Assembly: GCA_025352085.1 (NCBI GenBank)
Contig: JANXUA010000125.1
Location: forward strand, 19,439-83,438
Source of the DNA: Caulobacteraceae bacterium
Lineage (GTDB): Bacteria; Pseudomonadota; Alphaproteobacteria; Caulobacterales; Caulobacteraceae
Reading direction: 5' to 3'
DNA length: 64,000 bases
Shown piece after piece: positions 2,348 to 54,902 of the stretch. The translations under genes were made by a program, and so were the position numbers. The first letter of the stretch is position 1, and each line of letters starts with the position of its first letter. The notes below the pieces were generated by a model. That model ran no database searches, had not been told where the DNA came from, and worked only from the letters and a program-made list of their open reading frames with translations.

Positions 2348-5300
2348 TCAACGGATTGGCGGGGTCCCGAAGCCGCCGCCGCCGGGTGTGTGAATTTCAA
2401 TGGCGTCGCCAGCCTCGACGGTAACGGCGAAACAACCGGGGAGTTCCTTTACAGCCCCGTCGGCGCGGATCAACCACCCCGCGCCGCATTTTCCCGCGTC
2501 GCCGCCGGCCAGACCCTTTGGCGCGTGCGTGCGCCGGGTTGACAGCAGAGCCACCTGCAGAGGCGCCAGGAAGCGGATGCGCCGGACGATCCCGTCGCCG
2601 CCGACCTGAGCGCCCGCGCCGCCCGAGCCGCGCCGCACGGCGAAGCGCTCGACGCGCACGGGGAAACGCCGTTCGAGCACCTCCGGATCAGTCAGGCGCG
2701 AATTGGTCATGTGGGAGTGGACGGCGCTGGCGCCGGGAGCCCGGGCCGTCGCGCCGACGCCGCCGCACAGGGTTTCATAATACTGCGCCTCGTCATTGCC
2801 GAAGGTGAAGTTATTCATCGTGCCTTGTGAATGGGCCATGAACCCCAGCGCCTCATAGAGAGCGTCGACGATGTGCTGACTGGTTTCGACATTGCCCGCC
2901 ACCACCGCGGCCGGCGACGCCGGGTTCAGCATGGATCCGGCGCGCACCAGAACCTTTAGCGGCGTCAGACAGCCGGCGTTGAGGGGGATATCGTCCTCCA
3001 CCAAGGTGCGGAAAACATACAGGGCCGCGGCGTCAACGATGGCGGAGGGGGCGTTGAAGTTCGAGGTGAGCTGATCAGCGCTGCCACGAAAATCCAGCGT
3101 CGCCTCGCCGGCGTCGGCGTCGACGGCGATGTCGACGACGATTTCGCCGCAGCCATCCATGGCGACGCGCGCCGACCCGTTGCGCAAGGACCGCACCGCC
3201 CGGCGCACGCAGGCTTCGGCGTTGGCCTGGACGTGGCTCATATAGCGGGCCACTTCATTGGCGCCGCGCGTCTCGATCATGGCCAAGACGGCCGTCGCGC
3301 CGGCCTGACAGGCGGCGATCTGCGCCTTGAGGTCGCCAATATTGCGCCCGGGCGAACGGGCCGGCCAAGGCCCCGCGGTGAGGGCGGCGAGGGTCTCGGC
3401 CTCCAGGAAACGCCCCTGGCGCATGATCGGCAGGGTGTCGAGCATGACGCCTTCTTCGTCGAGGGTGGTCGAGAACGGCGGCATGGAGCTCGGCTGAATG
3501 CCGCCGACGTCGGCGTGATGGCCGCGCGCGGCGACGAAGAACTCCGGCGCGGCGGCGCCCTGGCCGAACACCGGCATGACCACGGTGATATCCGGCAAAT
3601 GCGTGCCCCCGGCGTAGGGATTGTTCAGCGCAAAGGCGTCGCCGGGCTGCTGAACTGGGTGGCGCGCCGTCACCGCGCACACGCTCGCGCCCATCGAGCC
3701 CAGATGCACCGGCATGTGCGGGGCATTGGCGACCAGGCCGCCGGCCGCATCGAACAGGGCGCAGGAAAAATCCAGCCGCTCCTTGATATTCACCGACCGC
3801 GCCGTGCGCTCAAGGGCCGCTCCCATGGCTTCGGCCACGCCCATGAAACGGCGGTTGTAAAGCTCGAGGGTGACCGGATCGACCGTGGCGGCGTCGATCC
3901 GCCTTTGCGCCGACCCGGCGACCCGCCTGAGACGGATCATCCCACCCGCGCCCCCTTCCGCCCGCCAGCCCGCCGCCACCCAGATCTGGGTGTCGGCGCG
4001 CAGGATGAGGTGAGGCCCGATCTTTCCCTCCCCTTCATGGGGAGGGCGACTCGCGTAAGCGAGCGGGGTGGGGTCTTTGAGGTGGCGCGAACCCCACCCC
4101 GGACTTCGCTCCGCTTCGTCTCGTCCCTCCCCATAAAGGGGAGGGATAAAATCTTCCTCGCCTTCCAGCTCAACCGCGGCGACGATCACTTGACCGCCGT
4201 CTTCGATAAAGCCGAACAGGCGCTGATGTGCCGTCTCGAACGCCCGCCGAACGACGGATAGGGTTCCGAAATCGACGACGAGGTCGGTGTCGGATTCACC
4301 GTAGCGCAGGCGCAACCGCCGGCGGACAGCGCAGGCCGCCACGCCCTGATCGCGCAAGGCGTCGCGAACATCCCGCTCAAGTCGGTCGCCGAGCGCGCGA
4401 GCGGCGGCGAGACCATCCTCTCCCAGCGGCTGTTCGAGCCCTCCCTGCCGCACGACGCTCATGCGCGCCTGGCCGATGCCCCAGGCCGACAACAGGCTGG
4501 CGTAGCGCGGACAGAGAATCTCATCGATCCCGAGCGCCTCGGCCACCTGACATGCCACCTGGCCGCCGGCCCCGCCGAAGGCGAGCAGGGCGTGATCGCG
4601 CGGGTCGAACCCGCGCTGCGTCGACAGACGGGCGATGGCGGCCGCCATCTGCTCGACGGCGATGGCCAGAAAGCCTTCCGCGGCCGCTTCGGCGCTCGCG
4701 GCGCCCATGGCCGTCGCCAGCTCGGTCAGCCGCGCGCGGGCGTCCTCGACGTTAAGGGCCGAGCGCCCGTCAGGGCCGAACACCGCCGGAAATGCCGCCG
4801 GATCGATGCGGCCCAGGACCAGATTGGCGTCGGTGACCGTGGCCGGACCGCCCCGACCGTAGGCGGCCGGTCCGGGATCGGCGCCGGCGCTGGCCGGACC
4901 TACCCTGGCGCGCAGGCCGTCGAAGGCCAGGATCGAGCCGCCGCCGGCGGCGACGGTCTCGATGTCAAGCATGGGCGCGCGCACCGGCGCGCCGGCGACC
5001 GTGGCGCCGGCCGTGCGCTCCAGGGCGCCGGCGAAACGGCACACGTCGGTTGAGGTGCCGCCCATGTCGAAGCCGAGCATGGGCCGCGCCGCGCCCGCCA
5101 TGTCCGCCGTCCGCGCCACCCCGACCACGCCGCCGGCGGGACCGGACAAAATGGCGTCGCGGCCGCGGAAGGCCTCGGCCCGCGCCAGTCCGCCGCCGGA
5201 GGTCATGAAGAACAGGGGCGCCCCCGCCACCGCGCGAGCGACGCCCTGGACGTAGCGCCGGACCACGGGGGTCAGATAGGCGTCAATGACCGTGGTCTGC

Positions 5301-5944
5301 GCGCGCGGGATGAAGCGAGGCAAGGGCGAGACTTCGGCGCCGCAAACCACGGTCCATTCGCGTCCCGCCTCGGCGCCGACGTCGCGGGCGATCTTGGCGG
5401 CGCGGCGCTCATGCGCGTCGTTGAGGTCGCTGTGCACGAAGGCGATGGCGACGCTTTCATAGTCTTCCGAGGCGGCCCGCTCGAGCGCGGCGCGCAGGGC
5501 GGCGTCATCGAGAACGCGAACCACTGTCCCGTCGGCGGCCATCCGCTCGTCCGCCTCGATCACCCCGGCGTAGAGCGGCGCAGGCTTGACGATGTCGAGG
5601 GCGAACAAATGCGGCCGGGTCTGATCGCCGATCTCGAGCGCATCGGCGAAGCCGGCCGTGGTGACAAACAGGGTCCTGGCCCCGACGCGCTCCAGCAGGG
5701 CGTTGGTGGCTACGGTCGTGCCGATCTTGATCGCGGCCACCCGCGCCGCCGGAAAAGGCGCGTCCGCGGCGACTCCAAGCAGGCGACGCATGCCCTCAAC
5801 GGCGGCGTCGGGATAGTCGCGCGACGCCGATGGCAGTTTGAGCGTGCTGAGAATGCCGTCCGGCGCGGCTCCGATCACATCGGTGAAGGTGCCGCCGCGA
5901 TCAATCCAGAAGGACCAGAGGCCGGAGGCGTCGATATTGGCCAT
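2348..5944 (-). CDS. Fused hydantoinase A/B family protein (5-oxoprolinase), with a dispersed repeat translated in frame between the two domains
   Basis: HyuA motifs ([52 protein letters not shown]) followed by HyuB motifs ([56 protein letters not shown]). Confidence 0.92.
4026..4145. repeat. Dispersed hairpin-ended repeat, copy 1 (inside the 5-oxoprolinase CDS)
   Basis: ccctccccttcatggggaggg ... gcggggtgggg ... ccccaccccggacttcgctccgcttcgtctcgt ... ccctccccataaaggggaggg. Confidence 0.93.
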
Positions 5945-6075
5945 CAAGAAAATGTCACCTGCGCCGCCCGCATCACAGAACCGCCCAAATTGAGTTGAAT
6001 GATTGATTGACTCTCAAGTCTAGCGAGGGGGATTATCCCTCTTTCCGCCCGTGGGCGGAAGCACAGGATACGATC

Positions 6076-14944: not shown

Positions 14945-15054
14945 CCCTCCCCTTTATGGGGAGGGTCGAGACGAAGTCCGGGGTGGGGTCGCCGCCCCCT
15001 TAAGAGCCCCACCCCGGTCGCTTCGCGACTCGCCCTCCCCATAAAAGGGGAGGG
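14945..15054. repeat. Dispersed hairpin-ended repeat, copy 2 (convergent gap)
   Basis: ccctcccctttatggggagggtcgagacgaagtccggggtgggg ... ccccaccccggtcgcttcgcgactcgccctccccataaaaggggaggg. Confidence 0.93.
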
Positions 15055-19759: not shown

Positions 19760-19939
19760 TAAGTGGGGAGCTTCTGTTGCCAGGCGCTCCGCCATTTTTG
19801 CGTTTTGACCGGGGGCGCCCGCAACGGGCGTTGGTAAGTAGGGGGCTTCTGTTGCCAGGCGCCCGCCATCTTTGCGTTTCATTAGGGGAGCGCCCCGGCG
19901 AATTGGGGAAAGTGGGGAGCTTCTGTTGCCAGGCGCTCC
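19760..19939 (-). repeat. Three tandem copies (~75 bp period) of the tmRNA 3'-terminal hairpin
   Basis: taagtggggagcttctgttgccaggcgctcc at 19760, taagtagggggcttctgttgccaggcgccc at 19835, aaagtggggagcttctgttgccaggcgctcc at 19909. Confidence 0.9.
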
Positions 19940-20250
19940 CCGGGCCCCGCCTGGCGCTGCTAAGACACCAGGGCTTTAGGTCGAGTGGACCGGCGCTGCT
20001 TACGCGGCGACGGCATACTCTTGAGCGAAGTTATCGTTCGCAGTTAGTTAAAGGCCCGAAACGGTGAGCCACGCCGAGAGAAAGCAACGCCTTTAGACGT
20101 CTGTCGATGCTGATCGGCCCCATGACGTCCCGCCGATAACGCGGGGGAGGAAAATGGTGGAGCCGCCGGGAATCGCACCCGGGTCCAGTCCGCTTATTAC
20201 GCGCGCGTTTATCTCCATAGACCGGCAAGCCGGACACGCTGAACATAGGC
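19914..20250 (-). ncRNA. ssrA: Circularly permuted two-piece tmRNA (acceptor piece upstream, coding piece downstream); outer ends approximate
   Basis: Minus strand: acceptor ...GGACCCGGGTGCGATTCCCGGCGGCTCCACCA ending at 20155; intervening segment; coding piece starting GGGGCCGATC at 20121; GGGGCCG pairs with CGGCTCC; tag ORF 20041-20000 = ANDNFAQEYAVAA*. Confidence 0.96.
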
Positions 20251-20353
20251 GTTGGGGCGGCGCAATGGAAGGGGCTGGAGGATGGGCGTCTCGCCCGCCT
20301 TGCGTCGTCGCGAAAGGTTTGCAGCGACGAACGGGACGCCCACCCTGCGGGAT

Positions 20354-35664: not shown

Positions 35665-35783
35665 CCCTCCCCTTTTTGGGGAGGGTCGAGACGGAGTGAA
35701 GCGTAGTCCGGGGTGGGGCTGTTTAGACCCTAAGAACCCCACCCCGGTCGCTTCGCGACTCGCCCTCCCCTTAAAGGGGAGGG
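35665..35783. repeat. Dispersed hairpin-ended repeat, copy 3 (tandem gene gap)
   Basis: ccctcccctttttggggagggtcgagacggag ... gtccggggtgggg ... ccccaccccggtcgcttcgcgactcgccctccccttaaaggggaggg. Confidence 0.93.
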
Positions 35784-36345: not shown

Positions 36346-36490
36346 CCCTCCCCTTTATGGGGAGGGTGGATTGGCGCGCAGCGACAAGACGGGTGGGGAA
36401 GTGTCGTGGAGGGCGAGGGAGTGGGTCCCACGAAATTTCCCCACCCGGACTTCGCTTCGCGCCGTCTCGACCCTCCCCAGACGGGGAGGG
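36346..36490. repeat. Dispersed hairpin-ended repeat, copy 4 (convergent gap; different left interior arm)
   Basis: ccctcccctttatggggagggtggattggcgcg ... ccccacccggacttcgcttcgcgccgtctcgaccctccccagacggggaggg. Confidence 0.9.
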
Positions 36491-36501
36491 AAAGGTCTCC
36501 C

Positions 36502-42610: not shown

Positions 42611-43189
42611 ATGGCGGTGGAAGAGCCCGGCGAGCTTTGGGTGTTCGGTTACGGCTCGCTGATGTGGCGACCGGGATTCGACTATGTAGAGCGCCAGAGC
42701 GCCGTCCTCCATGGCCGCCGGCGGGCCTTCTGCATTTATTCGGTGCATCATCGCGGCACGCCGGCGCGGCCGGGCCTGGTTCTGGGCCTGGCGGCGGGCG
42801 GCGCGGTGCGCGGCGCGGCCTATCGCATCGCGCCCGCCGACTGGCACGCCGTCCACGCCTATCTGATGGAGCGTGAACAGCCGACCGAGACCTATGTCGA
42901 GGCCTACGCCGAGGTGCTCCTCACCGACGGCCGCCGCGCCCGCGCCCTCACCTTCCTGTCCGATCGCGGCCATCCGCAATGGGCCGGCGCCTTGAGCCAC
43001 GAGGCCCAGGCCGACCTGATCGCCGGCGCGCGCGGCCTGTCGGGGCGCAATATCGACTATCTGCGCGATCTGGTGGAGCATTTGCACGACGAAGGGATAC
43101 GCGACCACGGCATGGAGCGCCTACTGGCGTTGGTGGAGGCGCGCGAGCCTAAAAACCCCCTCCTCTTTATGGGGAGGGTCGAGACGTAG
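42611..43189 (+). CDS. Gamma-glutamylcyclotransferase (ChaC-like)
   Basis: LWVFGYGSLMWRPGFDYVERQSAVLHGRRRAFCIYSVHHRGTPARPGLVLGL; C-terminal PLLFMGRVET* is encoded by repeat copy 5. Confidence 0.93.
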   Translation: MAVEEPGELWVFGYGSLMWRPGFDYVERQSAVLHGRRRAFCIYSVHHRGTPARPGLVLGLAAGGAVRGAAYRIAPADWHAVHAYLMEREQPTETYVEAYAEVLLTDGRRARALTFLSDRGHPQWAGALSHEAQADLIAGARGLSGRNIDYLRDLVEHLHDEGIRDHGMERLLALVEAREPKNPLLFMGRVET

Positions 43190-43291
43190 CGGAGCGAAGT
43201 CCGGGGTGGGGAAGTCTCCTCAGACACAACACGTGCGCCAAGATCCCCACCCCGCTCGCTTCGCGAGTCGCCCTCCCCATAAAGGGGAGGG
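43157..43291. repeat. Dispersed hairpin-ended repeat, copy 5 (convergent gap; overlaps the ChaC-like C-terminus)
   Basis: cccctcctctttatggggagggtcgagacgtagcggagcgaagtccggggtgggg ... ccccaccccgctcgcttcgcgagtcgccctccccataaaggggaggg. Confidence 0.93.
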
Positions 43292-54781: not shown

Positions 54782-54902
54782 CCCTCCCCTTCGGGGGAGG
54801 GCGGGTCGCGTCAGCGACCGGGCTGGGGCTCCTGAGGCCAAGACAGCCCCACCCCGGACGTCGCCGACGCTCCGTCTCGACCCTCGCCATAAAGGGGAGG
54901 GA
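54782..54902. repeat. Dispersed hairpin-ended repeat, copy 6 (convergent gap)
   Basis: ccctccccttcgggggagggcgggtcgcgtcagcgaccgggctgggg ... ccccaccccggacgtcgccgacgctccgtctcgaccctcgccataaaggggaggg. Confidence 0.92.

Follow-up and report, generated by a model that had tools for sequence, protein, structure and literature searches.

A variable HyuA loop as an apparent recurrent landing site for palindromic repeats in relatives of Caulobacter

RESULTS

A palindromic repeat within a HyuA-HyuB fusion gene

The window (the whole 64 000-nt stretch of a Caulobacteraceae genome analyzed here) codes on its reverse strand for a protein of the hydantoinase/oxoprolinase family (Table 1). Judged by its sequence matches, this protein is a HyuA-HyuB fusion with both domains in one chain. 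The reading frame is open throughout and corresponds to 1199 residues from a TTG codon or to 1198 residues from the adjoining ATG. The closest relatives with solved structures are a 1288-residue N-methylhydantoinase (7hk5, the alignment covering host residues 14-1196) and a 5-oxoprolinase (6yra); all NCBIfam equivalogs score below cut-off. Outside the linker, comparison with the homolog at locus L033 (79% identical) gave a dN/dS of ~0.15, a rough value, as synonymous sites are near saturation. By this estimate, the host gene outside the linker is under purifying selection.

Table 1. Location of the host gene, its loop and the copies of the repeat family in the window
Feature	Position	Strand	Evidence or remark
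HyuA-HyuB fusion gene, hydantoinase/oxoprolinase family (element host)	2348-5947	-	Pfam Hydant_A_N, Hydantoinase_A, Hydantoinase_B; dN/dS ~0.15
HyuA C-terminal domain, variable loop (linker EEDFI..KI)	4020-4160	-	Alignments; low-confidence loop in the model; apparent recurrent landing site in homologs
120-bp palindromic repeat	4026-4145	- (gene strand)	Residues 602-640 and parts of codons 601 and 641; uniform ends across genome copies
Full copy of the window family	14945-15054	-	No ORF of tested size spans the copy
Full copy of the window family	35665-35783	-	No ORF of tested size spans the copy
Full copy of the window family	43158-43291	-	No ORF of tested size spans the copy
Full copy of the window family	54782-54901	+	No ORF of tested size spans the copy
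Divergent or split copy of the window family	36346-36491	+	Spanning open frame without a Pfam domain

The original prediction was that a complete 120-bp copy of a dispersed repeat family is read in frame inside this gene. Its limits proved exact, and the 1198-residue frame is indeed open across it. The element (120 bp exactly) is palindromic and hairpin-forming, the RNA having a minimum free energy of -89.2 kcal/mol (z = -10 against shuffled sequences). Its first base is the third of codon 601 and its last base the second of codon 641. The final residue of the peptide initially quoted as the element, K642, therefore already belongs to the flank, with I643 standing between K642 and GPHLIL.

To locate the element in the protein, we used an AlphaFold2 model of the HyuA part (695 residues, mean pLDDT 87). 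Confidence falls to 63, 41 and 42 at residues 601-610, 611-620 and 621-630, respectively, and the element segment is flanked by two confidently modeled strands (587-598 and 641-657). The element is thus predicted to form a disordered loop that connects two beta-strands within the C-terminal domain of HyuA. In a relative (L048), residues 137-208 of the tested stretch match Pfam Hydant_A_C, weakly and below the curated cut-off, just past this protein's own element. The modeled strands and this match place the loop inside the HyuA C-terminal domain. The suggested inter-domain placement is thus not strictly correct: the residues that follow it are still part of HyuA, and the site is not the HyuA/HyuB junction itself.

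The repeat family in the genome

The whole genome (3.0 Mb, a draft of 187 contigs) yielded 74 blast matches to the window family. The 40 loci that were fetched contain 42 copies; the family numbers about 42 in this genome. The copies fall into two length clusters, ~120 and ~143 bp, and share uniform ends, with CCCTCCCC preceded by TTT on one side and GGGGAGGG followed by AG on the other. Because the ends are uniform across copies, the limits of the window element can be considered real. The divergent copy in the window (Table 1) has an altered spacing between the two element halves. The family had been described as normally intergenic, and this agrees with the Pfam-based survey, in which just one of the 42 sampled copies, that of HyuAB, resides in an ORF carrying a recognized domain.

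The site of CcrM methylation, GANTC, is present in 20 of 24 full copies (the window element and copies in loci L001-L029 and L235-L245; raw count). Rfam has no match at the window element, and a search of the plasmid collection for a plasmid origin of the element likewise returned no match. Elsewhere in the window, Rfam RF01849 identifies an ordinary permuted alphaproteobacterial tmRNA gene (19911-20274, reverse strand). The RAYT-type transposase domain (Y1_Tnp, PF01797) was not detected in the draft genome, while control genomes were positive in the same search.

Comparison with the nearest relative

L033, the closest relative found, has the same gene without the window element. Where the window has EEDFI-element-KI, the L033 linker reads EESPPVSLGPADETASVRPPAEIEEVN, i.e. 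27 unrelated residues. The original prediction had named the presence of the same residues in all close homologs as an observation that would speak against it; L033 shows that they are not shared. The L033 genome contains 21 matches to the window family elsewhere, and no match was obtained in five other genomes of the genus searched.

In other proteobacteria the canonical linker has ~52 residues and includes a conserved segment (e.g. RETVRMYSGGQWHDAALVVREDLRPGD). The suggestion that the element replaced linker sequence is consistent with this greater length and with the mere ~7 non-element codons left in the window linker. However, the element-free sister L033, with its linker shortened to 27 residues, is already devoid of the canonical segment, and therefore the loss of this segment is independent of the window element. 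Relative to L033, the window has a net excess of 20 codons, and ~20 L033 codons are without counterpart. Since the loop turns over too fast, insertion and replacement are inseparable in this genome.

Recurrent filling of the loop across the clade

We took homologs from 16 genomes of the genus, from 300 genomes of the family and from the genome_contigs collection. The clade of the host gene, recognized by a DTQI-type motif, comprises 82 distinct linkers. Inverted repeats with a score of at least 14 occur in 27 of these, as opposed to 3 of the 102 linkers from HyuAB proteins outside the clade (Fisher P = 2.5e-8) and 1 of 1614 same-length control windows elsewhere in the same genes (P = 8e-37); both values ignore relatedness. 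Based on DNA and peptide patterns, recognizable repeat sequence is present in half of the clade linkers (41 of 82) and represents about nine families, with ~14 of the 41 assignments being decayed remnants judged by eye. The most common family, E, accounts for 20 linkers and is read as AHPREGGDP..LGPRLRGDER. The other peptide types include SPLAGEG..LLPQGEK, SPHSWGEGG..SPYPLPPxDGGRG, HPGRSEAESRDP and the window type. The linker of L171 (genome G169), NHGKHGKSPAP..SVKSAPSVV, contains AACCACGGAA ... TTCCGTGGTT, which looks like a further repeat type.

Outside the main clade, positive linkers were found in L105, L120 (Sphingomonas) and L230 (Caulobacteraceae, HyuAB clade B). Their inserts are palindromic and occupy the same loop (inverted-repeat scores 20-23, z from -6 to -9).

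Misassembly is a known hazard of dispersed repeats, and the window genome, being a 187-contig draft, might have had a repeat stitched into the gene during assembly or binning. This is extremely improbable, as the reading frame and the conserved flanks are intact and the same site is filled in dozens of independent assemblies, including the one- or few-contig genomes G060, G224 and G175.

To count the fillings, family labels were mapped on a tree from which the linker columns had been excluded. This required 29 changes at equal costs and at least 16 gains when losses were free; collapsing weak branches alters the counts little. Differences in filling reach down to close relatives: L129 carries the window type while L133 and L140 carry E (end branches 0.03-0.05), and L058 differs in loop family from L167 and L174. 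The host-gene loop is, by these comparisons, a recurrent landing site for unrelated repeat families within its clade.

For each of the three types examined (the window family, the L056 type and E), the linker repeat is also dispersed in its own genome. Among 77 clade genomes matched by hand, a linker element was present in 36 of the 52 with E copies and in none of the 25 without (Fisher P = 1.3e-9, a value inflated because of shared ancestry). Presence or absence at the site together with genomic dispersion suggests that the elements are mobile.

A single old insertion, inherited vertically and then diversified or converted by dispersed copies, would be an alternative history. E is common across the clade and, taken alone, is explicable by one gain followed by many losses (parsimony with losses free). 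Nevertheless, the about nine families have no common sequence, all of them together still need 16 gains even if losses cost nothing, and the G136 linker copy is identical in both halves to many dispersed G136 copies. We therefore regard a single origin as very improbable.

Instead, we favor, with a probability of roughly 0.8, a tolerant loop that has repeatedly captured, in frame and nearly neutrally, active MITE/REP-like repeats resident in the genome. In the window, a non-autonomous palindromic repeat of this kind would have entered, in frame, a HyuA loop under little structural constraint, and the inserted segment would be tolerated as a disordered, hydrophilic stretch. Across the HyuAB clade the loop would behave as an intergenic spacer inside a gene: any palindromic family active in the genome could enter it and would be kept if length and frame fit. 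The loop element would then decay, to be lost or succeeded by another family. We infer that the insert is nearly neutral and undergoes translation in the cell, and that an enzyme acting in trans moves the elements.

Other host genes

In G136, none of the 25 other E copies has domains on both sides. In a survey of the E peptide in ten genomes, HyuAB accounted for eight of the nine longest open frames without interruption among the matches listed; the remaining one, in G223, lacks a known domain. HyuAB is thus, as far as these searches can tell, the recurrent host. The surveys of hosts rest on Pfam matches, and therefore genes without known domains may be missed.

We also considered HyuAB as the sole host gene. 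This had to be rejected, because an asparagine synthase of G281 (XrtA/PEP-CTERM-type amidotransferase; L304, 954-2945, reverse strand) carries a complete in-frame E element (SAHPREGGDPGVFDDIGSRRRSSKKTWVPAFAGMSGEEE). Capture is consequently not confined to HyuAB. The G281 element is situated between GATase_7 and Asn_synthase, and its right half is read differently from the HyuAB cases.

Occupancy of the loop and its possible causes

For 43 loci with flanks, a strong inverted repeat was found in 19 of the 43 linkers and in 8 of 801 flanking 160-bp windows. If ~10% of the flanks are intergenic, which is assumed, the loop seems to be filled at a few times the frequency of ordinary intergenic DNA. 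An enrichment of tens of times over intergenic DNA, entertained at one stage, was dropped, as the flank control gives only a few-fold excess over the assumed density. Since occupancy appears to exceed the flank background, strict neutrality may be an incomplete explanation; the excess would be compatible with target preference or retention and demands neither.

Under target-site preference, insertions would be drawn to the loop DNA or to an older palindrome within it, and the loop would act chiefly as a mutational hotspot and less as a tolerant site. Insertion elements are known to target REP palindromes. The seeming excess over flanking background fits such a preference, as does the succession of different families at one place in close relatives. 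Yet the ends differ between families, and inserts are rare in the paralogous HyuAB clade B (3 of 102), with the reservation that the DNA context there may differ. We consider target-site preference as the principal cause doubtful, though it may contribute alongside capture by a tolerant loop.

Alternatively, the capture might be functional, the insert itself or an mRNA hairpin between the HyuA and HyuB halves being selected, for example, for the pace of translation or folding or for mRNA stability. The hairpins are very strong (z down to -11), unrelated families converge on one site, and occupancy seems to exceed the flanking background. Moreover, all complete linker E elements are read as the hydrophilic HPxE..DP / PRLRGDER, while the dispersed E copies in G136 are open more often in a different reading, this left frame accounting for 10 of their 41 open ones. 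We set this frame bias aside as proof of selection, because it could reflect one old gain of E, which suffices if losses are free. Half of the clade, including all 25 E-free genomes, does without an element; the elements have no common sequence, and many of them are decaying. Covariation across the window family (24 full copies) points the same way: 30 consensus pairs are 97% paired, but only 2 of them show double-sided changes, and these data do not show selection on RNA structure. Overall, functional capture seems quite unlikely. The broader proposition that the loop is actively favored, either by target preference or by a selected coding hairpin, and that the elements are convergently acquired functional parts of the protein or mRNA, fares little better and remains unlikely.

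DISCUSSION

Near-neutral capture by a tolerant loop, the reading preferred here, has its closest known counterpart in the Rickettsia palindromic elements (RPE), which comprise ten families of ~150 bp with 44 gene insertions in Rickettsia conorii (PMC10969869). In both cases palindromes of ~100-150 bp, belonging to several families, sit in frame within metabolic genes, where they persist as an extra peptide. The likeness drawn originally between the window element and RPE is borne out for the mechanism: the window family is palindromic and multi-copy (120 or ~143 bp), and its copy is in frame with the host intact. It does not extend to the insertion of RPE into many unrelated genes. Copies of the window family hardly ever reside in genes (1 of 42 sampled), and the hosts found for E are HyuAB and one asparagine synthase. 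The two systems, set side by side by description, also differ in bacterial order and in that a single orthologous loop is here filled by many families.

Among other repeats, the Caulobacter CIR resembles the window family in being a palindromic intergenic repeat of Caulobacteraceae with the CcrM site GANTC. In the passage of PMC10969869 that cites Chen and Shapiro (2003), CIR is given as strictly intergenic, whereas the element studied here is located within HyuAB. The frequency of GANTC suggests a possible kinship between the two, compared here by description. REP/BIME repeats associated with RAYT are likewise short high-copy palindromes, often made of two inverted units and likely moved in trans; the window unit is larger (~120 or 143 bp), and the draft genome is devoid of Y1_Tnp. 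ERIC-type enterobacterial repeat units are portrayed in the excerpt of PMC2759123 as small mobile repeats with open frames fused to genes. They come from another lineage, and that excerpt makes no mention of one orthologous loop reused by several families. More generally, we found no report of one orthologous site with many families in the open-licence papers searched.

The contribution of in-frame selfish repeats to protein evolution was called unexplored in a 2024 review (PMC10969869). In relatives of Caulobacter, the HyuA loop appears to have taken up repeats of about nine families on at least 16 occasions, and close relatives are element-free or differently filled. These many fillings therefore constitute natural replicates, in which the neutrality of inserts, selection on frame and hydrophilicity, and the succession of palindromic elements inside a gene could be studied. 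There is also a practical warning for annotation, as peptides such as HPREGGDP..PRLRGDER can mark translated repeats. The loop would thus represent a natural record of selfish DNA becoming protein.
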